Under the pieces are notes generated by a model, which was given only the letters and a program-made list of their open reading frames with translations, made no database searches and was not told the origin of the DNA. A DNA stretch of 64,000 bases, taken from NCBI RefSeq assembly GCF_022132145.1, contig NZ_JAJISP010000005.1, positions 310,001 through 374,000 on the forward strand. Direction: 5' to 3'. This DNA is from Pseudomonas sp. MMS21 TM103 (GTDB lineage Bacteria > Pseudomonadota > Gammaproteobacteria > Pseudomonadales > Pseudomonadaceae). Position 1 is the stretch's first letter. Each line of letters begins with the position of its first letter. Below are positions 7,890-23,203 of the stretch, piece after piece. The position numbers were made by a program, and so were the translations under genes.

Positions 7890-8486
7890 ATGAGAAAGCA
7901 TTCCGCCGTTAGAGTAACGGGCGACAGCATACCCTCCGTGCTTATAGGTTTTGACGTAACCAAACTGGATGTACTTGTGCAGGATGGATGTCACTCCCCC
8001 GTGGGCTTGCGTGCTGGCCGGCCCTTTTTAAGCATGATGGCATTCAAATATTCAAATCAAATTTGGTGTTATGCGATCACTATGAAATACCCGACCGCTA
8101 GCCATCCCCTCACGAGCTTGGTTTTTCCCAAACAATCCGCTTCCACGCTTCGCGGATGTAACTTGGTCATTCATGCTGATCGCGCGCTGTTCAGCCCGGA
8201 ACTTATTGAAAAACACTTTAGTACGGCGGTCTTCGCAATCACTCCTCAGCATTCTATGCCGTGGTGCTTCCTCGAACACCCCCTCACAAAGCTGACACAG
8301 GCCCTACGTAGGGCAGTGCCACACTCTGCACGTTGGGGGAGCGCTGAAACTCCGAAATCAACAAAACTTGAAGATTTGAAACAATTCATTAACGATTTCA
8401 TTGGGACGTCAAATATTGTTAGTAAGGAAAATCCTCATTCGGTATCAACATTCCAGATGCCAAACGATCAAGGTGAGCAAAAATGA
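7890..8486 (+). CDS. Uncharacterised protein coupled to tnsA
   Basis: This 198-aa protein has no motif I recognise. ATG 7890 follows AGAGG at good spacing. Its TGA stop (8484-8486) overlaps the tnsA ATG at 8483, so the two are translationally coupled and it is the first gene of the transposition operon. The central part (residues 25-150) looks like a compact mixed alpha/beta domain; the tail after about 160 is polar. Its position suggests a transposition accessory or regulatory factor. It is not a TnsE homologue that I can recognise, and it lies upstream rather than downstream of tnsABC. Confidence 0.6.
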   Translation: MRKHSAVRVTGDSIPSVLIGFDVTKLDVLVQDGCHSPVGLRAGRPFLSMMAFKYSNQIWCYAITMKYPTASHPLTSLVFPKQSASTLRGCNLVIHADRALFSPELIEKHFSTAVFAITPQHSMPWCFLEHPLTKLTQALRRAVPHSARWGSAETPKSTKLEDLKQFINDFIGTSNIVSKENPHSVSTFQMPNDQGEQK

Positions 8487-9157
8487 CCACTCTCATCACC
8501 GGCGGTGTGGTTGAACAACTTACCGAAGTAGCCACTGCTGTCGAGGCTGTGCATCCTCGCCACGGACGGATGGGCAGCCGAGTCACAAAATTCTCTTCGC
8601 GGAAGAACCGTTCAGTCGTCGTCTGTGACTCCTTGCTCGAGGCAGCCTTTTGCTTGGAACTCGAACGCCGCAACGATGTTGTTCACTATGAAGCCCACCC
8701 CTACACCCTGAAATTTATTAGAACTAACTACCGCTACACGCCTGATTTTCTGGTCTGCTTTGCTAACGGGTCACAGCGTCTGGTTGAAGTCAAGAATGAC
8801 GAAAGCTTTGAAGACAAGGCCACTAGCGCCCGGATTACACGCTATGCTGAACTGCTGGCCACGCGAGGTTGCATGCTGGAATACCTTGCAGCGTCGCATT
8901 TTTATCAAAAAATCCGCACTGCCAACCTTGCTTTTCTATATCACCAGTCTTTTCCAAGCAACGGCGAAAGCACTGCGAAACTTTGCGCCCTACTGGCATC
9001 ACGTCAACAACCTACGAGCATTGGTGATTTGCTGAATCTGGGGTTTCTGCCCGGCAACATCGCGCATGCCGTATTTTACGGCGCACTCGACATTGACCTT
9101 TCCAACGCAATCACCTGCTCCACCAGAGTGCGGAACAAACGGCAACGCCCACCCTGA
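8483..9157 (+). CDS. tnsA: TnsA-like transposon endonuclease
   Basis: The 224-aa protein has the type II restriction-like fold of TnsA, which cuts the 5' strands at transposon ends while TnsB cuts the 3' strands. Catalytic residues can be read as Glu53 in SLLEAAF, Asp88 in YTPDF, and Glu102/Lys104 in the VEVK motif. The C-terminal part (about 140-210) corresponds to the TnsA helical domain that contacts TnsC. Length is a little below Tn7 TnsA (273 aa). It overlaps the upstream gene by four bases and is followed by a 116-bp gap with two hairpins before tnsB. Confidence 0.88.
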   Translation: MTTLITGGVVEQLTEVATAVEAVHPRHGRMGSRVTKFSSRKNRSVVVCDSLLEAAFCLELERRNDVVHYEAHPYTLKFIRTNYRYTPDFLVCFANGSQRLVEVKNDESFEDKATSARITRYAELLATRGCMLEYLAASHFYQKIRTANLAFLYHQSFPSNGESTAKLCALLASRQQPTSIGDLLNLGFLPGNIAHAVFYGALDIDLSNAITCSTRVRNKRQRPP

Positions 9158-9168
9158 AAGCGGGCGTT
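9144..9168 (+). promoter_or_regulatory. Hairpin spanning the tnsA stop codon
   Basis: The perfect 7-bp inverted repeat AACGCCC / GGGCGTT (9144-9150 and 9162-9168) encloses the tnsA stop codon (9155-9157). There is no T run, so it is not a classical terminator; it may act as an mRNA stability or attenuation element. Confidence 0.4.
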
Positions 9169-9192
9169 GAAGTAGCAACTTTCCCGAACCGA

Positions 9193-9217
9193 GAGTACAT
9201 CTTGCTTTTGTGTACTC
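9193..9217. promoter_or_regulatory. Inverted repeat between tnsA and tnsB
   Basis: The perfect repeat GAGTACA / TGTACTC (9193-9199 and 9211-9217) lies in the 116-bp gap before tnsB. It could be an operator, a transposase-binding site or an RNA hairpin. Confidence 0.35.
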
Positions 9218-9273
9218 AAGACCAACACGTGGTTCGCTCACGTCATACCTGATCAAGCAGGCTTGCGAAAACG

Positions 9274-11184
9274 ATGGGTACTTCTCAGACCTTTACAATA
9301 CTCGTAGGCGAGCACTGGAGGCTCCGCACTGAAACTTATCAGGTCACCGCGGTGGAGCCTGAGAGGGCTCAATTGCGTAGCCTTAGTCGACCCAATCATA
9401 TTTTAATTCATCACATTGACCAACTCTACCAAGCCTACCGCAGAGGGAACTTGGTGAAAGTTCAAGAGGCACCTTTTATAGACGGTTCGAAGCGCATCAT
9501 CAGTGCGCTGGACGATTCGGCAAAAAATGAACTGAATAGGCGACTCTTCTATGTTCGGGCTGGCGAAACTGAGCTTGGCGGCCAACTTCCTCGCCAATTG
9601 ACTGAGGCTTTGATAGCACGAGTGAAAGTTGAAATTTCTGACCCTTCGCCTCCTTGTTATACAACCTTATATGAATGGACCAGATCCTACCGCCTAGCGG
9701 GGGGCAACCCGATCGCGCTGATCCCGACGAGACGCCGAACTCGCCAGCTTCGCGTAACCCGCCAACTTCCCGTAATCCAAGAGTTAATCGATTACTGGAT
9801 CCAAGAGTTGTACTTTCAAGATACGCCGATTACCGCAACAGAACTGATTGATGTCATCATTTCCAGTGTCGAGGACTTGAACGAACGCCGTGCGATCACG
9901 GACCAACTGCACGTTCCCAGCAAAACGACACTCTGGAGGATCATTCAGGAAATTGATCCCTACGAAAAAGATCTTCACCAGAAGGGCAAACGCCTTGCGC
10001 TGAAAAATCAACACTGGAGCCAGAAGACCAGTTCGCCCTTTCGCCTACTTGAGCGCATTGAGGGAGACACACAAGAAATGGACGTCTTTGTCCGAGGCGC
10101 CGGCGGTGACATATTAGGTCGACCATTCCTGAGCCTCTTTCTTGACAGCAAGTCCCGGTGCGTCAACGCATACGACATTTCATTGAACCCTCCCTGCATA
10201 GAGAAAACCTTGCGTGCGTTGAAAAACGGACTGATATCAGGGAACCCATACGCTGGACTAGGGCAATATTACGTACTTGATAACGGCAATGAGTTCGCGG
10301 GCAAGAAGCTGTCCGAAGTGATGGATCTCTTGGGTGCACACATAATTTTCTGCGAACCCTACAGCCCTAATCAAAAGCCACATGTCGAACGCTGGTTTAA
10401 AACGCTCAACACGCAATTTTCCCACCATTTGAGCGGGACCACCTTCTCCAATCCTGATGATCGAGGGGACTACAACCCAGCAGAACATACAATTTATACA
10501 CTTGAGGAACTCATACTTCGATTTGAAGAGTTCCTTCAGGTCTATCACAACAATTTCCACAGGTCGCTCAACGACTCTCCGCATAATACCTGGATCAACA
10601 ATCTGGACCGGTTTTCACCGCCCAGACTCTTTGACGCCAGCGACGTGCGTCGGCTGATGTTGAGTAAACGATATGCAGCCACCACAGGCGACACCATCGG
10701 ATTCGAAAAACTACGGTGGACCGCACCCGGCATACGTCGTCTCGCTCAACGCTCTGTAAAACGGGTGAAGCTGTGCATCTTCTACGACATCAGCGATCTT
10801 GGCAGCATAACGATGTGCCACCCCTGTTGGCCCGACGAGCTCATCACCGCTAAAGCAGTGGATATGGATTATCAGTCCAACCTCACGCTCGAAATGCATC
10901 ATTTGATCCAGCAAGAACTCAGACAGAACGCGGCAAAATTCGATTTCCAAGCCGCACGCCGGGCGCGCGTCCAGCTCATCCTGAAGTTGCATGCCGACAA
11001 GAGTAAGCGGGGACGTAAACGCCGAGCCCGGCTGGAGGAAAATCGGTCCACCTACCTGCCTTCACCATCCAAAAGCCCAGAGGCCAAGCCGCCCACCACG
11101 TCGCCGACGACCTATCCAGAGGTGACGCTGGTCGACTCAAGTCCCCCCGAGTTCGCAACCACGGTACAGGTGCACCATGACTAA
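9274..11184 (+). CDS. tnsB: TnsB-like DDE transposase (Mu/TniA type)
   Basis: The 636-aa protein carries an rve integrase core with the triad Asp270 (EMDVFV), Asp336 (LDNGNEF) and Glu372 (KPHVERWF). The last two are 35 residues apart, giving a classical D,D(35)E enzyme. The first 230 residues are the N-terminal DNA-binding region. Residues 470-540 form the Mu transposase C-terminal beta-barrel, and the Lys/Arg- and Pro-rich tail (about 570-636) is where TnsB proteins contact TnsC. It cuts and joins the 3' ends of the transposon. The start at 9274 has only a weak AGG upstream. It overlaps tnsC by eight bases. Confidence 0.92.
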   Translation: MGTSQTFTILVGEHWRLRTETYQVTAVEPERAQLRSLSRPNHILIHHIDQLYQAYRRGNLVKVQEAPFIDGSKRIISALDDSAKNELNRRLFYVRAGETELGGQLPRQLTEALIARVKVEISDPSPPCYTTLYEWTRSYRLAGGNPIALIPTRRRTRQLRVTRQLPVIQELIDYWIQELYFQDTPITATELIDVIISSVEDLNERRAITDQLHVPSKTTLWRIIQEIDPYEKDLHQKGKRLALKNQHWSQKTSSPFRLLERIEGDTQEMDVFVRGAGGDILGRPFLSLFLDSKSRCVNAYDISLNPPCIEKTLRALKNGLISGNPYAGLGQYYVLDNGNEFAGKKLSEVMDLLGAHIIFCEPYSPNQKPHVERWFKTLNTQFSHHLSGTTFSNPDDRGDYNPAEHTIYTLEELILRFEEFLQVYHNNFHRSLNDSPHNTWINNLDRFSPPRLFDASDVRRLMLSKRYAATTGDTIGFEKLRWTAPGIRRLAQRSVKRVKLCIFYDISDLGSITMCHPCWPDELITAKAVDMDYQSNLTLEMHHLIQQELRQNAAKFDFQAARRARVQLILKLHADKSKRGRKRRARLEENRSTYLPSPSKSPEAKPPTTSPTTYPEVTLVDSSPPEFATTVQVHHD

Positions 11185-12133
11185 CTCGAATACCACCGTT
11201 TTGAATGAGTTTTCGACTCAGATAGTGCTGTTTCCAGCATTCCACCATGCTTACACCATGCTGCAAAAAAGTGTTGAAACCACACAGCAACGCGGGGTAC
11301 CAAATTCGGCTATGGTGATCGGACCATCTGGCTCGGGAAAATCGACGTTATGCGAAATCTTCAGAGACTCTTTCGGACCTACTCACGAAGAGACTTATCC
11401 CGACGGCGTTTATACCATCCGACCTGCCTTCTATTGCAGCACGCCATCGCCTGTCACCGTTAAATCATTTGCCAAGACAGTCGTTCAAAAACTCGCTCCG
11501 ATAGGAAAACCAGCTGACCTTCGAGGCGATACGGTAGAGTTGACGTTTCGCATGTTGGAGCTCTTCAAAACGTGTCGCATCCGAGTATGTGAATTTGATG
11601 AATTTCATTATTTGGTCAAGCCTGAAGCTGTAAAAGCCAAAGAAATTGTAGTTGATTGGCTCATCACCCTGATCAATGAGAGCCATCGCTCTTTTGTTTT
11701 AGCAGGTACCAACAATTGCTTAGAGCTGTTAGATGAACGCCCTGCCCTGGCCCGTCGCTTTCCGTATGTAATCGAATTGAAATACCTTTCGTACAGCGAG
11801 GACAAAGCGTCAGACTATATGATTCTGCTCTCGAAGCTTGATGAGCACATCCAGGCCATTGCCAATATATCTGGCGGATCCAAATTGACAGATCCTGACA
11901 TTGCTGCGCGCCTGTATGTCGCCACGTCGGGAAATCTGGAATATATTCGGATGGTAATTCACGGAGCCTTGCAAAATGCGCTCCCTCACCGAAGCACGGG
12001 TCTTAATTTGGCCGATTTCAAGAGAGCCGCAGCGTTGCTTGACCTGAAGCTCCGTCAATTTGAGTGCCCCTTCGACGAGCCGCTGAGCAATTGCTACCAT
12101 AAAATATATGACCACAACCATGAAGACACTTAA
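11177..12133 (+). CDS. tnsC: TnsC/TniB-like AAA+ transposition ATPase
   Basis: This 318-aa AAA ATPase has Walker A GPSGSGKST at residues 49-57 and a Walker B region ending in FDEFHYL near 138-144. Sensor residues follow in FVLAGTNN. It matches the TniB/TnsC family, which assembles on target DNA, links the TniQ/TnsD selector to the transposase and provides target immunity. It is shorter than Tn7 TnsC (555 aa) and closer to TniB size. It overlaps the genes on both sides, so the operon is tightly coupled. Confidence 0.9.
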   Translation: MTNSNTTVLNEFSTQIVLFPAFHHAYTMLQKSVETTQQRGVPNSAMVIGPSGSGKSTLCEIFRDSFGPTHEETYPDGVYTIRPAFYCSTPSPVTVKSFAKTVVQKLAPIGKPADLRGDTVELTFRMLELFKTCRIRVCEFDEFHYLVKPEAVKAKEIVVDWLITLINESHRSFVLAGTNNCLELLDERPALARRFPYVIELKYLSYSEDKASDYMILLSKLDEHIQAIANISGGSKLTDPDIAARLYVATSGNLEYIRMVIHGALQNALPHRSTGLNLADFKRAAALLDLKLRQFECPFDEPLSNCYHKIYDHNHEDT

Positions 12134-14429
12134 CTTTATTCCAATCCCCTTGCCACATGAAAGTCCAACAAGCGTAATCAAACGGCTCTGCCGTCGCAAT
12201 GGCTATTCAAATGTGAGCAAGTTCATAGCATTCCACTTCGTGCCGGGACTACTCCCTATTTCCTCTTTGCTTCAAGGTAGCCGATTCGAACGGTTCATTG
12301 CATCAAACCTGGAGGAACCCCTGCAGGACCAAGTACGGTGCAGTTTCTACAGCACAGGCGAACAATCCTGGGGGCCGATCAGCATCGGAAAACTCCGCAT
12401 GAGCCGTCGTCTCTTGCGTAGAGTCGACGCCGCATTGTGTACGGAGTGTGCAAGTGATGGATGGGAACACTCCTTGAAAGACATCTATCTCACCTCACAC
12501 TGCCCCATTCACAACAGGCATTATTTGTCCACCTGTCCTAAATGCCAAAAGCACCTGACCTGGCTCAACCAGTTGTCAAGCCATTGCGACTGCGGCGCAC
12601 CACTTAAATCGCCCGCATGTTCTTGGGAAGAGGCGCTGCCGGAGCGGCGATTGATGGAAATATTAGAAGCCGAAGACCAACTTCGCTTCGACCGAGTCAT
12701 TTCAATTCTCCGCCATTTAGACACGGATCTCAAAGAAATCAGCACTACTCCTATCCACGAGAAATTTGCCGCAGCAATAGCGCTTGTATTTGACGACGTT
12801 GAGCGAGCGGCCTTGTCTCTTTCTCATCTCTACAACATAACGGATCCGTTAGAAATTGAAGTACTGCTGAGAAAATTACAACCGGTCATCCCGCTATCCA
12901 TAGCGGCACAATTACGCTGTCATTTCGACAAGTTCCCTGCTCGCACGCTCTCCACTCCCTCATCCATCCGAATCCCCTCGAGCCTGATGCCGAACCTTCT
13001 TCACATCGGCCAAGAGGAATGGAGTATGCTTAGGAAAGATAAACGTTTTAGAAAGCTGTTCCCAACTCATACTGGCGGTCAACCTTACACGACTGAAGAA
13101 TTGTCACAAATTGCTGAGGTAATAAAAGCGTCCAACCGACCAATCGGTAGAAGGCAGAGTGTAGAAATGGCGATCCGTGAGGGTGTTTACTATGAATATC
13201 AGGAAGCCTTCACGAAGCTCTCCGTCTGCAAACGGCACTTTGCCTATCTACTTAAACACAATGCCTTCGGCAAAAAACAGATCTTCAATTCAAAGACCTA
13301 CCTTCTAAAATACGCCGTCGACGCATTTGTGGACACCCACATCCAGCTTCGGCAACTTAGCCGCCGCCTCGGAAAATCGACCGCCACTATCCATCTGGCA
13401 CTCCGAAAGTTTTCCATTCAATACTCAATATTTTCAGAATGGTACGGCCCTCCTTTCTTCATCAGCCTCGAAGACGTACCAGCTATAGAGGCGACCATAC
13501 GAGATCTGCCTTCCTTGAAATACTCCTTGGGAAAATTTCAATCTCGAAAAATTTGCCCGTCTAGTTCAACACCGACAATATCTCTCTCCAAGGCCGCATC
13601 ATTTCTGCACGTGCACCTACGAACAGTTATCTACTACCGAGACTTGGGATTGCTCGCTCACCATAAAGACGATTTAAATTTAATTGCCCATGAGGATATA
13701 CTGAAATTTCATCAGCGCTTTGCTACTCCCACAGATCTCGGGAAAGAACTCAATTTAAGTTCCAAGATGGTAACGCGCGTTCTGCAAAACCTCGGCATAT
13801 CCCCAATAGCAGGACCGGCCGTCACTGGCACAGGAAGTCAGATCTTTGACCGCTCAAAACTTCCGTCGGACCTTGCGCATCATGTGAACCCCTATCATGA
13901 TGACTTTGGAATATACTGGCTGCAAAAAAAAATTTTACCCGTGGAAGAGGTCGCAAAAAGCCTAGGGATTACCAAACATGATACAACGCAACTGATCCGC
14001 TTAGAGATCAAGCCCAAGCGTGCGCCATGCTATCAACACTACTGGGGAGTTTCGATTAAAGAGCTTTCCACGCTTGAGACCCTGTTAAAATCACTGACGC
14101 CGCTGTCAGATTTTTTATCGATCCGCGAGATGACACACGCATCCTTTGTGCGGCGCTTTGCCACACCCAAATACGTACAAATCGTTAGAATAGGCAATAC
14201 TGAGTACCTTAACCCACCTGATTTACAAAAACTCAATCTGCTGCTAGCCGAGTATTGTAGCCTTGGAGAAGCGGACAAAATTCTTAACGCCCCAAAAAAC
14301 GCATCAGGAAAATTGCTTTCAAAAAACAAAATCCGACCACATTTTCTACCAAACTATTACTATAAACAACCTCTTCTGCGAATTGATGACGTAAAGGAGA
14401 TTGCCAAAAAACGACACAACCTGGTCTAG
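12108..14429 (+). CDS. tniQ: Long TniQ/TnsD-family target selector
   Basis: At 773 aa this is longer than typical TniQ (about 400) or TnsD (508). The N-terminal TniQ domain includes the LPHESPTS motif and zinc-binding pairs Cys111/Cys114, Cys132/His135 and Cys143/Cys146 plus nearby cysteines. From about residue 330 to the end, at least four or five helix-turn-helix-like segments can be picked out (for example LSRRLGKSTATIHLAL, LSKAASFLHVHLRTVIYY, LGKELNLSSKMVTRVL, VAKSLGITKHDTTQLI). This suggests a modular sequence-specific DNA binder that directs insertion to a fixed site, as TnsD does. It overlaps tnsC by 26 bases. ATG 12120 is an alternative start. Confidence 0.87.
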   Translation: MTTTMKTLNFIPIPLPHESPTSVIKRLCRRNGYSNVSKFIAFHFVPGLLPISSLLQGSRFERFIASNLEEPLQDQVRCSFYSTGEQSWGPISIGKLRMSRRLLRRVDAALCTECASDGWEHSLKDIYLTSHCPIHNRHYLSTCPKCQKHLTWLNQLSSHCDCGAPLKSPACSWEEALPERRLMEILEAEDQLRFDRVISILRHLDTDLKEISTTPIHEKFAAAIALVFDDVERAALSLSHLYNITDPLEIEVLLRKLQPVIPLSIAAQLRCHFDKFPARTLSTPSSIRIPSSLMPNLLHIGQEEWSMLRKDKRFRKLFPTHTGGQPYTTEELSQIAEVIKASNRPIGRRQSVEMAIREGVYYEYQEAFTKLSVCKRHFAYLLKHNAFGKKQIFNSKTYLLKYAVDAFVDTHIQLRQLSRRLGKSTATIHLALRKFSIQYSIFSEWYGPPFFISLEDVPAIEATIRDLPSLKYSLGKFQSRKICPSSSTPTISLSKAASFLHVHLRTVIYYRDLGLLAHHKDDLNLIAHEDILKFHQRFATPTDLGKELNLSSKMVTRVLQNLGISPIAGPAVTGTGSQIFDRSKLPSDLAHHVNPYHDDFGIYWLQKKILPVEEVAKSLGITKHDTTQLIRLEIKPKRAPCYQHYWGVSIKELSTLETLLKSLTPLSDFLSIREMTHASFVRRFATPKYVQIVRIGNTEYLNPPDLQKLNLLLAEYCSLGEADKILNAPKNASGKLLSKNKIRPHFLPNYYYKQPLLRIDDVKEIAKKRHNLV

Positions 14430-17483: not shown

Positions 17484-17745
17484 GTTAGATATGTCGATAC
17501 AGAAGCGGCGGATACATGCCGGCGACCGGCGTTTTGCAAAGTAGTTGGCGCGTCAGCCGTGTTTTTAAGCTGCTATTTTCCCTGCCGGCTGCTCCCTTTC
17601 CGGGTTGACCGCGAACATGCTGCCGAATGGGAATTCCGCCCGGGATGCGTTCAGGTGGAACCTAGGGACTATCAGAAGAAGAGCCAGCACTGCGGGTTCA
17701 GCCTCTGTACACTTTCCGCCTTTGAACGACGCCAGGGATGATGAA

Positions 17746-18798
17746 ATGCAACAAAAATGGATTGATCGCCCGGCATCGGACACGGATTGGTTTGATCTGG
17801 CACTTGAGCAATCTAACGGCTTTTTCCGTCGGCACTTTTCCTTGGTGGCCAAGGTCGCCCCGCCGCTCTTCGGCTTATGCATATTCATCTTCTATTTTTA
17901 CCGCAACCATTTCTATCCCAGCTTCGACCTGTTCCAGTTTTCCTCTTTACTGCTTGCTGCTGCGGCCATTGGCTTCGCCATCATTGGCGCTCTGGTAGTG
18001 CCGCTGTTCCTACCCGGCCCCTGGATCTTCGCCCAATTTCTCGAGCACACGACGATCAAGGATGAGCTACGGTACTCGCGCCCTTATCTCGATAACCAGC
18101 GGGTCTGGTGGGTACTGAAATTGGGCTGCCTGGTGTATTGGCTTCCCTTCTTGGCCTGTACAGCCGGGCTGGTGACGGTTGCGCTCCTTGCGCCGAAACT
18201 ATTCGTTCTGTCGATCTTTTTGATGCCAGTACTGGTTAGCCTGATCGTCGGCCTGATCGTCCAATCTGCTTTCGGGCTGCCGCCGCTCAGTTTCCTTCGC
18301 TATCTGTGGGTCGCTGATGTGGCCGTCATGGCAGTAGGTGGATTTACCGCCGTCATCCTGGCGCAAACCGCACCGGTCATCGAAGGGTTCGATATTGGTG
18401 CGTGGAAGTGGCTGGTTTATGTCGCTGTCATGCTGGCCGTCTCGTTCATAGCGGCGCTATGCTCGTTTCTCTTTATCGCAGGCTGGAATGCTGCGCTGCA
18501 CTTTTCCGTATTCTTCGCACTGCTGATTGCCGGCTACAGCGGCGTGCTCACCACCCTGCCAGATAAAACGGTGCGTGCCCTGGGGCTCGGTAATTACCAA
18601 GCCGACGCACTCTTGCTGGAGCAGAGCTACTGCGACGAGGCGACGCTGAAATGGCTAGCGTTGGATGAAGGCTGCGCACTGACAAAGATCCACGTCGTCT
18701 GGTCGCTTGGTGAAAATCTGATACTTCGCACCGATGATGGACGCACGATGCAAATTCCATCGAGATTCATTCGGGCCATTGTGAGATCAGACAACTAG
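17746..18798 (+). CDS. Uncharacterised polytopic membrane protein
   Basis: A 350-aa inner-membrane protein, not recognised. About eight hydrophobic segments lie between residues 35 and 275: near 38-58, 64-90, 125-150, 152-175, 180-200, 208-228, 240-262 and 265-280. The last 70 residues are soluble, probably cytoplasmic, with a GENLILRTDDGRTMQIP strand-rich piece. I start it at ATG 17746 because AGGGATGATGAA precedes it; the frame is open upstream to 17605 but that part is low-complexity. It stands alone, with the palindromic repeat on its left and a convergent gene on its right. Confidence 0.65.
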   Translation: MQQKWIDRPASDTDWFDLALEQSNGFFRRHFSLVAKVAPPLFGLCIFIFYFYRNHFYPSFDLFQFSSLLLAAAAIGFAIIGALVVPLFLPGPWIFAQFLEHTTIKDELRYSRPYLDNQRVWWVLKLGCLVYWLPFLACTAGLVTVALLAPKLFVLSIFLMPVLVSLIVGLIVQSAFGLPPLSFLRYLWVADVAVMAVGGFTAVILAQTAPVIEGFDIGAWKWLVYVAVMLAVSFIAALCSFLFIAGWNAALHFSVFFALLIAGYSGVLTTLPDKTVRALGLGNYQADALLLEQSYCDEATLKWLALDEGCALTKIHVVWSLGENLILRTDDGRTMQIPSRFIRAIVRSDN

Positions 18799-18977: not shown

Positions 18978-21900
18978 CTACATCAAACCAAACACCACAC
19001 TCATCGGCCCACTGCCACTGTGGCTGCGATACCTCACCTTGCCGTGATAAGTAAACGGTGCACCCTTGCCGTTTTCGACTTTGTTCTCCCGCACGAACAG
19101 ATGAATGCTGATCCCCAGCTTCTCGTGCTCGATGATTTCCTTGCCCCGTTTGCTGCTGGGTGTGGTCGCGTTCTGGCTTTGCCAGTGGAAGCTCTGTTCG
19201 TCGAGCCAATGGTCGAGGTAGCGGTGCTCCGCAACCTTGCCTTGTTTGTTCAGGGTCACCAGCAGCACATGGGCACGCTGCTCGGCCAACAGTACATGGC
19301 CGGCGTTCCAGTTGCCGGTGTTGAACTTGGCGCCAAACAGCGCCGGGATGTTCTCGCGCAGGAAGCGTTCGCCGATCACCAGCTCCAGCGGGTCGAGCAC
19401 CGCCTTGAGGCGGGCGAAGGTGTGTAGCTGCTCGCGCAGCTCTTCGGTGACGGCGATATCGGCGTAGTCGGGATTGTTCGCGCGCAGCAGGTAGCTGCCG
19501 TCCGCTGCCTTGAGGATCACCCGCAGCAGGTACTGGTTGTCGCCGGCAGCGTCCTGCCGCTCGATGGCCATGGTGGTGCCGGTGATCGAGCCGGCGCTTT
19601 TCGGGTTGATCTGCTCGAGCAGCAGGTAGTCACCATCGCGCACTGGCTGCTTGCCGCCATTCATCGAGTTGCCGGAGGCGCGGGCGATGAAGTGCCGTGA
19701 GCTATCCAGGCGGCCATGGCCCTCGCCGACCAGACGGTATTCCTCGCTGTCGGCCGTGCCGGTCTTGAAGTGGCCGCAGGCGATTTTCAGGTTGGGGAAG
19801 AACGGCAGCTCGGTGCCGCTGCGCGTGGCGACCGGCAAGCTGACCACCGGCGCTGCCGTGACCGCCCTGCGCACTGCGTAGGAGGCCAAGCGGAAGTCGA
19901 CCAATTCCTGGACCAGCTCGGCGAAGCCTTTCCGCTCGGCTTCGCCGATCTTAAAGCGCGGGACGAAACACCCTTGTTCCACGACGAAGAAGCGCTGGCC
20001 GCCGCGCTGCTGATTGCCGCCGACCCAGGCGTTGATCGGGTTGCTCTGCCAGTAGCGCAGCCAGGCCGGCGCGCTGCCGTCCGCCAATCGAGCCTGTTCC
20101 TCCGGCAAGTCGGCCAGCAGCGGCCGGCGCCGTTGCAGGAGCTGCCAGGAACGCTCGGCCAAGGCCGCTTCGCTGGGCGCTGTGCGCCAGCCGTCCAGTT
20201 CCTGGAAGGCTTCCAGCAGGATCATCTTGAAGCTCTTGGTCATGGCGGTGGTTTCCAGCTCGCGCAGGAAGGGCCGATGCGCCGTGGCCAAGTCCCGTTG
20301 CGCCTCGGGCAGGTCGCCCATCTGCTCCAACAGGGCGAACCAGTCACCGAATTGCTTGCGCATCTGCTGCAGGCTGGCGCCGGAGCGGTAAAACTCGCTC
20401 AAGCTGGGGCGCCGGTTTAGCCCTTCGCGCAATGCCTGGTAATGGCTCTGCACGCCGTCGCCGTCGAGCGACGTGAGGAAGTCGAGCAACTGCAGGTCGT
20501 AGTTGACGAAGCAACCCTCCGGCAGTTCCAAGCGCTGTTCTGCGGCGGCGCGGGCAAACGCGGCCAGTTGCCGGTGGTTCATGCTGTTGCCCATCAACGC
20601 CTGCGGCTTGTGCAGGAAGCTCTGGTGGTTGCCGATGAAGTCGAGCACCACCAACTTGTCCTTGCCCTCGGCCTTGCGCAGGCCACGGCCCAATTGCTGC
20701 AGGAAGAGAATCTTCGACTCGGTCGGCCGCAGCATCATCACCGTGTCGATGGCGGGCAGGTCGACGCCTTCGCTGAACAGGTCGACCGAGAAGATCAGCG
20801 GCAGGCGGCCATCGTCCAGTCGCTCCAGCGCCTCACCCCGCGACAGGCTCGAGCCGGCATACACGGCGGCGGCCTCGACGCCTTGCTTGCGGAAGTACTC
20901 GGCCATGAACTCGGCATGGCGGATCGACACGCAAAACGCCAGCGTCCGGCTCTGGGCGTGTTCTCGCCAGGTTTTCAGCACGTGGCGCGCGCGGCCCAGG
21001 GTGGCGAGTTTGTTGGCCAGCTGCTCGGGGTCGAAACGGCCATTGCGCCAGGGAATCGCCTGGTAATCCACGCTGTCGTCGAAGATGCCGTAGTAATGGA
21101 ACGGCGCCAGCAACTGGCTTTCGATGCCGCGAAACAGGTTGGTCTCGAACACCAGGTTGTCGTCGCACAACGACAGGATATTGGAGCAGTCGGTACGATC
21201 CGGCGTCGCGGTCAGGCCGAGCAGGAAAGACGGCAGAAAATAGTTGAGCAAGCGGTGATAGGTGGGCGCGGCGGCATGGTGGAATTCGTCGATGACGATG
21301 TAATCGAAATGCCGCGGCGAAAAGCGCTCCAGGTGCTCGACGCGCCCGAGCGTCTGTACCGAGGCGCAGAGCACGTCGACCTGGCTGTCGCGCTGCTGGC
21401 CCATGTAAAAACCGACCCGCTGCCCCGGCCGAATACTCACGAAGGTCTCGGCAGCCTGATGCAGAATTTCCTCGCGGTGAGCCACGAACAAGACCCGCCG
21501 TGCCCCGGCCTGTTTGGCATCGAAAGCAGCTAGCCAGGTCTTGCCCAGGCCGGTCGCCAACACCACAAGGCCGCGCCGGTAACCGTGCTCGCGGGTCAGC
21601 GCCAGGGCCTGCAGCGCTTCGCCCTGGATGCTCGTCGGCGTCGGTGGCGGTTCCACTTCCAGGCTACCCGGGGCGATGGCGACCGGTGGCGGTTGGCGCC
21701 GGGCCTCGTAGTCGTCGATCCAGGCATGGCTCAGCGGCTTGCTGCGTGGATTGGCGAACAATTCCTCGTAGCGGCTGCGCGCCTCGAGGAAGCCGTCATC
21801 GCCGGGATAGTCGATGCGGTAATTCCACTCCAAGCCATCGCGTAGCGCCTGGCGGCTGATGTTGCTCGAGCCGATGAACGCCTGGCCGCGCAGTTGCCCG

Positions 21901-22832
21901 TCCGCGTCCTGGGCGGCGAACAGGTAGGCCTTCATATGGAAGCTGCTGCCGGCGCTTTCGTAGACGCGCACCTGGGCGCCTTCATCCTGCAGCAACATCA
22001 GGCTGCGCAGCGCTTCGGGGTCGGTGACGTCGAGGTAATCGCTGGTGACGACGCGCACCCGCGCGGTCGGCGCGCCCTCCTCGCCCGGCTTCAGCCGCGC
22101 CAACAAATCGGGCAGCAACAAGCGCAGCCCGGTGCTCTTGATAAAGGCCACCGCCATGTCGACTTCGCTGGCGCTGTTGATCGCGGCGCACAGGTGCGGC
22201 AGGAAGTGGTCCAGCTTGCCGCCGGTGACCAGGCGCGCCGACGGTACCGGCTGGCGCCGGGCCAATACGTTCAGCCAGGCATCGCTGCGCCCGGGACGCT
22301 GGTCGGCGCTGTGCCAGTAACTGACGTCGGCCACGTCGGCCAACGGCGCCAGCCAGGTATCCATCTGCGCTTCGGCCGCATCGGTGAAGCGACGGCCCTG
22401 ATGCTCGCGCTCGCCTTCACCGACCTTGAAGCTGCAATAGAAGATCCCGCCCGGCTTCAACGCCTGCCACAGGCGGGCGAGCGCATCGGGCATCTGCGCA
22501 TGCGGCACATGCAGCAAGCTGGCGCAGGCCCATACACCGTCATAGCGGTTGAGTTCGTCGACCTCTGCGAAGCTCCGCACCGGAACCGGCTGGCCGAGGT
22601 GCTGGCTGGCCAGCACCGCTAACGCCGGCGAGGCATCGAAAGCCGCGACGCGATAGCCGCACGCCGCAAACGCCTTGGCATCGCGCCCGGAACCACAGCC
22701 GGCATCCAGGATGAAGCCGCCGACGGGTATCGCTTCGAGAAAGCGCGCATACAACGCGCTCATGTCCACGGCGATGGTATCGGCAAAAAACTGTTCGGCG
22801 TTCTGCTCGTAGTAGCTGTGCGTGTCGCTCAA
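18978..22832 (-). CDS. Methyltransferase-PLD-helicase-DUF3427 fusion protein
   Basis: A 1284-aa multidomain protein. Residues 1-190 form a class I SAM methyltransferase (LDAGCGSG at 42-49). Residues about 200-370 form a PLD-like nuclease with His299-x-Lys301 and GSSN at 321-324. Residues 390-760 form an SF2 helicase with ATGLGKT (426-432), DEFH (515-518), TATP (541-544) and QLGRGLRK (713-720). Around 1030-1130 is an S24/LexA-like domain with Ser1056 in SGNSMN, and the C-terminus is DUF3427. I infer a TTG start at 22832 because AAGGA precedes it and the methyltransferase begins there; an ATG at 22922 would add 30 unlikely residues. It probably acts on DNA as a restriction-like or repair factor; the exact role is unknown. 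Confidence 0.82.
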   Translation of the reverse strand: MSDTHSYYEQNAEQFFADTIAVDMSALYARFLEAIPVGGFILDAGCGSGRDAKAFAACGYRVAAFDASPALAVLASQHLGQPVPVRSFAEVDELNRYDGVWACASLLHVPHAQMPDALARLWQALKPGGIFYCSFKVGEGEREHQGRRFTDAAEAQMDTWLAPLADVADVSYWHSADQRPGRSDAWLNVLARRQPVPSARLVTGGKLDHFLPHLCAAINSASEVDMAVAFIKSTGLRLLLPDLLARLKPGEEGAPTARVRVVTSDYLDVTDPEALRSLMLLQDEGAQVRVYESAGSSFHMKAYLFAAQDADGQLRGQAFIGSSNISRQALRDGLEWNYRIDYPGDDGFLEARSRYEELFANPRSKPLSHAWIDDYEARRQPPPVAIAPGSLEVEPPPTPTSIQGEALQALALTREHGYRRGLVVLATGLGKTWLAAFDAKQAGARRVLFVAHREEILHQAAETFVSIRPGQRVGFYMGQQRDSQVDVLCASVQTLGRVEHLERFSPRHFDYIVIDEFHHAAAPTYHRLLNYFLPSFLLGLTATPDRTDCSNILSLCDDNLVFETNLFRGIESQLLAPFHYYGIFDDSVDYQAIPWRNGRFDPEQLANKLATLGRARHVLKTWREHAQSRTLAFCVSIRHAEFMAEYFRKQGVEAAAVYAGSSLSRGEALERLDDGRLPLIFSVDLFSEGVDLPAIDTVMMLRPTESKILFLQQLGRGLRKAEGKDKLVVLDFIGNHQSFLHKPQALMGNSMNHRQLAAFARAAAEQRLELPEGCFVNYDLQLLDFLTSLDGDGVQSHYQALREGLNRRPSLSEFYRSGASLQQMRKQFGDWFALLEQMGDLPEAQRDLATAHRPFLRELETTAMTKSFKMILLEAFQELDGWRTAPSEAALAERSWQLLQRRRPLLADLPEEQARLADGSAPAWLRYWQSNPINAWVGGNQQRGGQRFFVVEQGCFVPRFKIGEAERKGFAELVQELVDFRLASYAVRRAVTAAPVVSLPVATRSGTELPFFPNLKIACGHFKTGTADSEEYRLVGEGHGRLDSSRHFIARASGNSMNGGKQPVRDGDYLLLEQINPKSAGSITGTTMAIERQDAAGDNQYLLRVILKAADGSYLLRANNPDYADIAVTEELREQLHTFARLKAVLDPLELVIGERFLRENIPALFGAKFNTGNWNAGHVLLAEQRAHVLLVTLNKQGKVAEHRYLDHWLDEQSFHWQSQNATTPSSKRGKEIIEHEKLGISIHLFVRENKVENGKGAPFTYHGKVRYRSHSGSGPMSVVFGLM

Positions 22833-23203
22833 ACTTCGCGTCCTTGTGCAACGACCAATGCCAGGGGATCGAGGGGATAGATCAAGGCGCCAGGGTACTT
22901 GATTGCCGCCCGTTGCAGCCACCGGCTACACAGCGGAGTTGGCCAGCAGCGTCTGCATCTGCTCAACCAGAACCACTCACGCGCGCCGCATGTCGAGGGC
23001 CTGTTGGTACCCGTAGACTTGGAAGATGAGTTTCAGATCGTTCCTACGTCGGCGCGGAGCGCCACAAGCTTGCTACCACGCGGACGGTTCGACGCATCGA
23101 CATGGGAGCCATCAGAGCCCGGATGCGCGCTGCCCCAAGGCAGCGTATGCCGAGCCAGCCCCAGACTGACTGATTTGCCATGCAGGTTGACCGCTATACC
23201 GCC
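22833..23203. other. Intergenic region between two divergent genes
   Basis: About 370 bp with no assignable gene. On the minus strand a frame of roughly 57 codons stays open (reading KGGIAVNLHGKSVSLGLARH near its start) without a ribosome binding site, possibly a decayed gene piece. It must hold the promoter of the large fusion protein. Confidence 0.35.

Follow-up and report, generated by a model that had tools for sequence, protein, structure and literature searches.

A single open reading frame on the minus strand of contig NZ_JAJISP010000005.1 of Pseudomonas sp. MMS21 TM103 (assembly GCF_022132145.1) encodes a protein in which a small class I methyltransferase, dependent on S-adenosylmethionine (SAM), is joined to a nuclease. 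The gene lies within the window, the whole stretch of 64,000 nucleotides analysed here (positions 310,001 to 374,000 of the contig), whose numbering is used throughout unless another locus is named. A Pfam profile search matched six regions of the chain, which is laid out as follows, with the supporting matches and Pfam E-values in brackets.

18978..22832, minus strand: whole fusion gene, 1284 amino acids plus stop, a member of one clade of fused proteins (SH-aLRT 94, quick tree).
22233..22832, minus strand: class I SAM-dependent methyltransferase, residues 1-200, with the SAM motif DAGCGSGRDA at residues 43-52 (Methyltransf_25 at residues 41-129, 3e-14; PDB 3e23 by sequence and fold).
21693..22232, minus strand: PLD nuclease, residues 201-380, with H299 x K301 and N324 (PLDc_2 at residues 257-343, 2e-7; conservation of H and K).
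20568..21692, minus strand: SF2 ATPase, residues 381-755, with Walker A K431 and DEFH at 515-518 (ResIII at residues 399-546, 7e-34; Helicase_C at residues 623-719, 2e-12; PDB 7clg).
19821..20567, minus strand: helical coupler, residues 756-1004 (helices in the predicted model; placed by its order relative to SauUSI).
19395..19820, minus strand: S24/LexA-like domain, residues 1005-1146, with Cys1019-Gly1020, Ser1056 and Arg1104 (Peptidase_S24 at residues 1016-1140, 1e-6; fold match to lambda cI and LexA; alignments).
18981..19394, minus strand: SRA domain, the C-terminal half of DUF3427, residues 1147-1284 (DUF3427 at residues 1150-1271, 7e-21, covering profile positions 126-245 of 280 only, which is the SRA half; 7clg 805-918; fold match).

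The frame is open without interruption from a GTG at 22922 to the stop at 18978. Within it the TTG at 22832 is almost certainly the start of the fusion gene, because AGGA sits 8 bases 5' of it and because a start codon (TTG, ATG or GTG) stands at the equivalent site, 40 residues ahead of the SAM motif, in all 13 intact fused proteins (the query and 12 homologues), five of which have an upstream stop 1 to 7 codons before this common start. An earlier note on this DNA had read all the domains as one chain and had allowed that a start near the PLD domain could make the methyltransferase a separate gene; the single open frame and the common start codon, in the query and its 12 homologues, bear out the former and rule out the latter. 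In five of six pairwise comparisons, the ratio of nonsynonymous to synonymous substitution (dN/dS) was below 0.41 for every domain, the methyltransferase included, and in the sixth, with L008, five of the six domains were saturated. All domains with a computable dN/dS are under purifying selection, and the fusion frame bears no sign of decay. A chance or decayed frame was ruled out by the homologues and dN/dS.

The closest solved relative of the nuclease part is SauUSI (PDB 7clg), matched by the whole sequence at E 5e-89 and best over residues 201-753, and the PLD-helicase-DUF3427 arrangement, which the earlier note had taken for a known one, is indeed that of this enzyme. As described in extracts of PMC7913695, SauUSI is an m5C/hm5C-dependent type IV restriction enzyme in which PLD domains dimerise, an SRA domain reads 5-methylcytosine (5mC) and an ATPase powers translocation and shredding. 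The query shares with it the order of PLD nuclease, SF2 ATPase, coupler and SRA, the last of which aligns with its SauUSI counterpart by sequence and also matches it in a fold search. The HxK, Walker A, DEFH and late helicase motifs are present in the query and its relatives, nearly all ungapped rows agreeing, and the catalytic H and K of the PLD site are kept in 19/19 S24-bearing rows and 37/37 other rows. The equivalents of Asp858 and Trp868 in the SRA pocket (SauUSI numbering) are likewise found in all 19 S24-bearing rows. At the position of Tyr831, however, the modelled methyl contact in SauUSI, these same 19 rows have His (Val in 20 of 26 S24-less rows), so that the target of the query may be something other than plain 5mC.

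Further differences from SauUSI are the N-terminal methyltransferase, a LexA-fold domain inserted between coupler and SRA, which is the sole C-terminal domain in several relatives, and a diverged coupler, helical in the predicted model but with a sequence similarity to that of SauUSI of only 2 bits. Minus the methyltransferase and the S24 domain, the protein appears to correspond to SauUSI, with the HxK PLD nuclease, the SF2 ATPase motifs and the C-terminal SRA all in place. Type IV restriction enzymes by definition lack a methyltransferase of their own, but here one is fused or adjacent, and therefore the enzyme, although it may work like SauUSI, is not filed as plain type IV.

The predicted model of the C-terminal half (mean pLDDT 80, pTM 0.46) matches lambda repressor and LexA in fold. 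The residues of its S24 domain were compared with LexA and two UmuD-like proteins of the query genome, in alignments on which three MAFFT modes agree. The catalytic Ser, Ser1056 in the query, is present in 25/25 rows, whereas the column of the dyad Lys holds Arg in 21/21 rows of the clade (Arg1104 in the query); Lys is found there in the distant L023 and in the three aligned S24 proteins of the query genome itself, its LexA and both UmuD-like ones. The substitution suspected in the earlier note is thus real and clade-wide. The suggestion drawn from it, that the domain senses rather than cleaves, is plausible rather than proven: the loss of the dyad Lys speaks for it, while an Ala-Cys-Gly kept in 21/21 clade rows speaks against it, as this aligns with the Cys-Gly of UmuD (Cys1019-Gly1020 in the query), which we take to be UmuD's cleavage site. 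Both a docked, uncut loop and slow, conditional cleavage are possible, and we infer a recogniser or switch whose self-cleavage has been lost or strongly reduced. Fold, Ser and Cys-Gly are shared with LexA, UmuD and lambda cI, from which the domain differs in its Arg and in its position within a nuclease chain. In L023 (5479-9879), a Planctomycetota PLD-SF2 protein of 1467 residues, the dyad Lys is accompanied by Ala-Ala-Gly at the cleavage-site position, and this is possibly an active S24 domain inside a nuclease.

The methyltransferase domain (METHYLTRANSFERASE) has its nearest relative, both by sequence (E 1e-33) and by fold (TM 0.90), in RPA2492 (PDB 3e23), and it is akin in the same two respects to TehB/UbiG-like class I methyltransferases. 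RPA2492 is stand-alone and uncharacterised, whereas here the methyltransferase is fused to or placed beside nucleases. Further fold matches are to toxoflavin, halide, protein N-terminal (NTMT1/NRMT2), METTL6 and unassigned enzymes, and no DNA methyltransferase is named among the best 50 of 1767 matches. The DNA-methyltransferase motif, given as [SDN]PP[FYW] in an extract of PMC10853773, is absent: the residues that follow strand 4 are WxCASLLH in 26/26 aligned rows of the subfamily and SAVWMH in a second subfamily. A target-recognition domain is also absent from the 200-residue single-domain model, which matches 3e23 over its length. A canonical DNA methyltransferase was ruled out on motif and fold, and the domain appears to be of the small-molecule type. 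Lys136, Arg147, Arg179 and aromatic residues are conserved in its alignment, and the query genome has a distant paralogue (32%).

The fusion extends well beyond the query. Scanning genome contigs turned up 21 loci, with intact fused proteins in Pseudomonas, Stutzerimonas, Marinobacter and Thauera among others and a contig-cut fused copy in a Verrucomicrobiia metagenome-assembled genome. The copy in Pseudomonas tumuqii (L011) is 96% identical to the query. The single clade formed by the fused proteins lies within a larger group (SH-aLRT 97, again from a quick tree) that is mostly S24-bearing, with the S24-less rows L020, L021 and L097 inside it. The fusion is rare in the genus, being found in at least 3 of 199 genomes, the query's included; genome counts for genus, class and phylum are lower bounds, as most genomes had only two or three first-look candidates scored. 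In split forms, which lie outside the fused clade, the methyltransferase gene is directly ahead of the nuclease gene (L021, L027, L057, L058, L059, L095, L096), or is divergent from it (L018) or convergent with it (L056). The S24 domain comes last, without an SRA, in the split nucleases of L018, L027, L058, L059, L095 and L096, and those of L020 and L021 have neither. A fused and possibly broken methyltransferase-PLD-SF2 frame of 989 residues, with no S24 detected and only a short SRA piece, occurs in L175 (3176-6142).

The linkage of methyltransferase and nuclease was counted in samples of 369 genomes at class level and 398 at phylum level. In these, a methyltransferase is fused to or a near neighbour of the S24-bearing PLD-SF2 enzyme in 10 of 10 genomes that have one (query included); the enzyme of G505 is divided between two contigs, with one small open reading frame in between. 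Four S24-bearing copies that are broken or cut at the N-terminus (L012, L016, L022, L024) are omitted from the count; they come from the contig scan and not from the samples. S24-less relatives in the same samples have a neighbouring methyltransferase in 2 of 25 cases, in both of which it is fused to an HNH nuclease. SF2-only matches without PLD (L030, L090, L094) are excluded from the 25, four stretches among them are shortened by contig ends (L104, L108, L163, L169), and L171, with an HNH piece at the stretch edge and no methyltransferase seen, was scored as having none. For the link between S24 and methyltransferase, Fisher's p is 1e-6 without the query genome, phylogenetic dependence being ignored in this value. 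The caveat of the earlier note, that the methyltransferase might prove to be without any link to DNA in its homologues, does not apply, since homologous methyltransferases are tied to nucleases. In L064 (4643-8670), a truncated methyltransferase lies directly ahead of hamA and a helicase gene, a Hachiman-like arrangement.

The same methyltransferase family is also the partner of HNH nucleases, which have a different nuclease fold, lack the SF2 motor and carry an N-terminal (S/T)YK(F/L)AL-type region with Pfam HNH or HNH_4. It is fused to them in L107 and L109 and lies beside them in L101, L102, L114, L116-L119, L121, L209, L210 and L212; in L103 and the viral contig L184, the HNH protein bears the same S24 domain at its C-terminus. 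These pairs are found on plasmids, on viral contigs and in defence islands; some loci adjoin BREX, CRISPR I-Fv, McrC or integrases, and others are on phage and viral contigs. HNH-linked and PLD-linked members are intermixed in the methyltransferase tree, also a quick one. Among 16 close viral methyltransferases, seven have an HNH gene beside them and one a PLD-SF2 gene. In two unverified phage records from gut samples, the methyltransferase accompanies an SF2 helicase (L215) or stands in a row with PLD-SF2-SRA and HNH, between the two (L216). SauUSI-like enzymes without S24 share a locus with methyltransferase-HNH fusions or pairs in L107 (6504-11469), L109 (4789-9844), L116 (12995-24322) and L115 (11995-20473), marine gammaproteobacteria being among the hosts, and a combined locus is possible.

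At one Pseudoalteromonas locus the nuclease has been exchanged. L027 carries a PLD-SF2-S24 enzyme where L114 and L210 carry an HNH one, while the methyltransferase (82% amino acid identity), the upstream flank (67-90% at the nucleotide level) and about 210-230 bases of the downstream flank (80-84%) are common to them. We regard this swap as the strongest single indication that methyltransferase and nuclease work together, with the nuclease as the apparently exchangeable part.

On plasmids, 135 records matched the methyltransferase, only part of which were examined. The HNH count there covers the best 13 (H61-H73) of 18 rows, the other five being two HNH pieces and three matches to the S24 part only. 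The methyltransferase is adjacent and intact in seven of the 13, adjacent but broken in two (L211, L213), and elsewhere in the locus, with other genes intervening, in two (L115, L208), and in the remaining two (L206, L207) there is a HIT-family gene instead. Together with viral L182, where an in-frame stop breaks the methyltransferase near an intact HNH gene, this gives three loci with an intact HNH beside a broken methyltransferase; the frame breaks in L211 and L213 could be sequencing errors. With its partner broken or replaced in this way, the HNH nuclease is probably tolerated in the absence of the methyltransferase, which weakens classical restriction-modification and antitoxin readings alike. 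A strict antidote role for the methyltransferase is weakened by these three loci and by L019, described below. The HIT-HNH loci are L206 (4660-6032) and L207 (4568-6035), on plasmids of Aromatoleum and Polaromonas.

These observations are best explained, we think probably though well short of certainly, by the joint work of two recurring parts, a small class I methyltransferase and a nuclease that can be exchanged, which the query would unite in a single chain. By analogy with SauUSI, the nuclease probably dimerises through its PLD domains, and probably its C-terminal module reads DNA, its SF2 motor travels along the DNA and its HxK site shreds it. Homology makes it likely that the enzyme acts on foreign DNA as SauUSI does, and its role would be directed against phages or plasmids. 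S24 and SRA would form the recognition and switch module; several split forms end in S24. The methyltransferase would be a dedicated partner of this nuclease and of the HNH ones and most likely the signal maker: the nuclease would learn what to cut, or when, from a SAM-dependent change made by this enzyme; DNA, a nucleotide, the nuclease or another protein are candidate substrates.

Several observations weigh against such a joint system. The tie between S24 and methyltransferase is not exclusive: outside the samples, a methyltransferase lies beside a PLD-SF2 enzyme without detected S24 in L020 (where it is broken), L021, L187, L216 and L217. Conversely, L019, an S24-SRA enzyme with the Arg dyad, has no close methyltransferase in its genome (best 26% identity, E 2e-7), and neither does L023 with its Lys dyad. 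Half of the eight close methyltransferases of the class sample are without a nuclease partner: L062 and L063 are alone, L064 is truncated, and L061 is at a contig end, beside a transposase-like open reading frame, and groups with the fused clade. Eight of the 16 close viral methyltransferases have neither nuclease in the flank examined, and on the two betaproteobacterial plasmids it is the HIT-family gene that stands in the methyltransferase's place directly before HNH. The coupler is not recognisably homologous to that of SauUSI by sequence.

A bolder form of the joint system, offered tentatively and with distinctly less confidence, is an unnamed class of immune systems built on a constant methyltransferase of non-DNA type and an exchangeable nuclease (PLD-SF2, HNH or perhaps other SF2), of which the query would be the most compact form. 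A protein or a phage-specific nucleotide, modified in a SAM-dependent manner, would serve as the signal in place of a classical DNA methyl mark, and in part of the family this signal would be read through a LexA-fold switch that cleaves conditionally or not at all.

As to what the methyltransferase does, no one role is given better than a low probability. The least improbable is that of a SAM-dependent regulator, which would hold the nuclease in an inactive or active state either by methylating it or some other protein or by sensing SAM or a small molecule. Its fold neighbours of small-molecule and protein type, NTMT1/NRMT2 included, accord with this, as does its retention where the nuclease was swapped, and fusion and adjacency would preserve stoichiometry; a modifier of the nuclease itself, however, would need to act on both PLD-SF2 and HNH proteins. 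We consider such a regulator a minority possibility.

Restriction-modification in a single chain, with the methyltransferase marking the cell's own DNA and the nuclease cutting DNA that is unmarked or otherwise marked, seems unlikely. Many loci do have the methyltransferase-nuclease order with abutting or overlapping genes, and sampled S24 enzymes always have a methyltransferase while the methyltransferase is sometimes alone, the asymmetry expected of restriction-modification. On the other hand, the 200-residue enzyme has neither motif IV of DNA methyltransferases nor a target-recognition domain, its best 50 fold matches include none named as a DNA methyltransferase, HNH persists intact beside broken methyltransferases (L182, L211, L213), and L019 is without a close one. 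The modify/restrict machine of the earlier note, in its classical sense, is therefore not upheld, given a methyltransferase of apparent small-molecule type without [SDN]PP[FYW] and the three loci with intact HNH.

Doubtful, too, and not favoured, is a mark-then-cut scheme, in which the methyltransferase would alter foreign DNA or a phage-modified nucleotide, such as a hypermodified base, and the S24/SRA module would read the mark. The SRA pocket, with Asp and Trp in 19/19 rows but His in place of Tyr831 in all of them, may read a base other than plain 5mC, and Lys136, Arg147, Arg179 and the aromatic residues of the methyltransferase would fit an anionic aromatic substrate. Under this scheme, however, the HNH partners without S24 or SRA would require a different reader. 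An accidental fusion of a housekeeping methyltransferase to an ordinary type IV enzyme, with no common function, is very improbable: although the methyltransferase family has stand-alone members and the query genome a distant paralogue, the query and 12 intact fused homologues form one clade, split relatives have adjacent methyltransferase genes, two methyltransferase subfamilies are linked to the same enzyme group, and the nuclease swap and purifying selection tell against it as well.

Elsewhere in the window, a Tn7-like gene set occupies 8483-14429 on the plus strand, with a G+C content lower than that of most of the window.

8483-9157, plus strand: TnsA-like gene, part of the Tn7-like set.
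9274-11184, plus strand: open reading frame of 636 amino acids in the TnsB position, with no Pfam match.
11177-12133, plus strand: TniB/TnsC-like gene, part of the Tn7-like set.
12108-14429, plus strand: TniQ-like gene, 773 amino acids, part of the Tn7-like set.

In addition, an open reading frame of 397 amino acids (17605-18798, plus strand) lies tail to tail with the fusion gene; its product has the look of a membrane protein and no Pfam match, and this stretch is conserved at the nucleotide level in L011 and L007.

The best PADLOC match is mREase_IV for the nuclease part (E 5e-115, with weaker matches to PbeA, type I and others) and mad2 for the methyltransferase (E 3e-14), the latter covering the generic methyltransferase fold only, and the HNH proteins give low-scoring matches to Cas9, PtuB and other HNH-containing models. 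Within NCBIfam cut-offs, only helicase/restriction, methyltransferase and Cas9-like HNH names were returned, and PHROGs gave a generic methyltransferase and HNH. The HKD-SF2 nucleases beside Dnd genes, as presented in extracts of PMC10853773, similarly pair a PLD(HKD)-SF2 nuclease with a DNA-modification module, but there the partner is phosphorothioation machinery, whereas the query has a small class I methyltransferase. Neither SauUSI-like enzymes nor S24 domains are new; for the methyltransferase fusion, its sharing with HNH nucleases and a Ser/Arg S24 domain inside nucleases, searches of open-licence PubMed Central papers brought up no description.

If the joint system is real, restriction-like immunity gains an additional module, a portable methyltransferase of small-molecule type that serves unrelated nucleases, and the substrate of this enzyme would reveal either a new mark on DNA or nucleotides or a new way of gating a nuclease. 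The fused form makes the joint function testable with one gene. Moreover, the use of a LexA-type domain inside a nuclease prompts one to ask whether restriction is linked to SOS or RecA.

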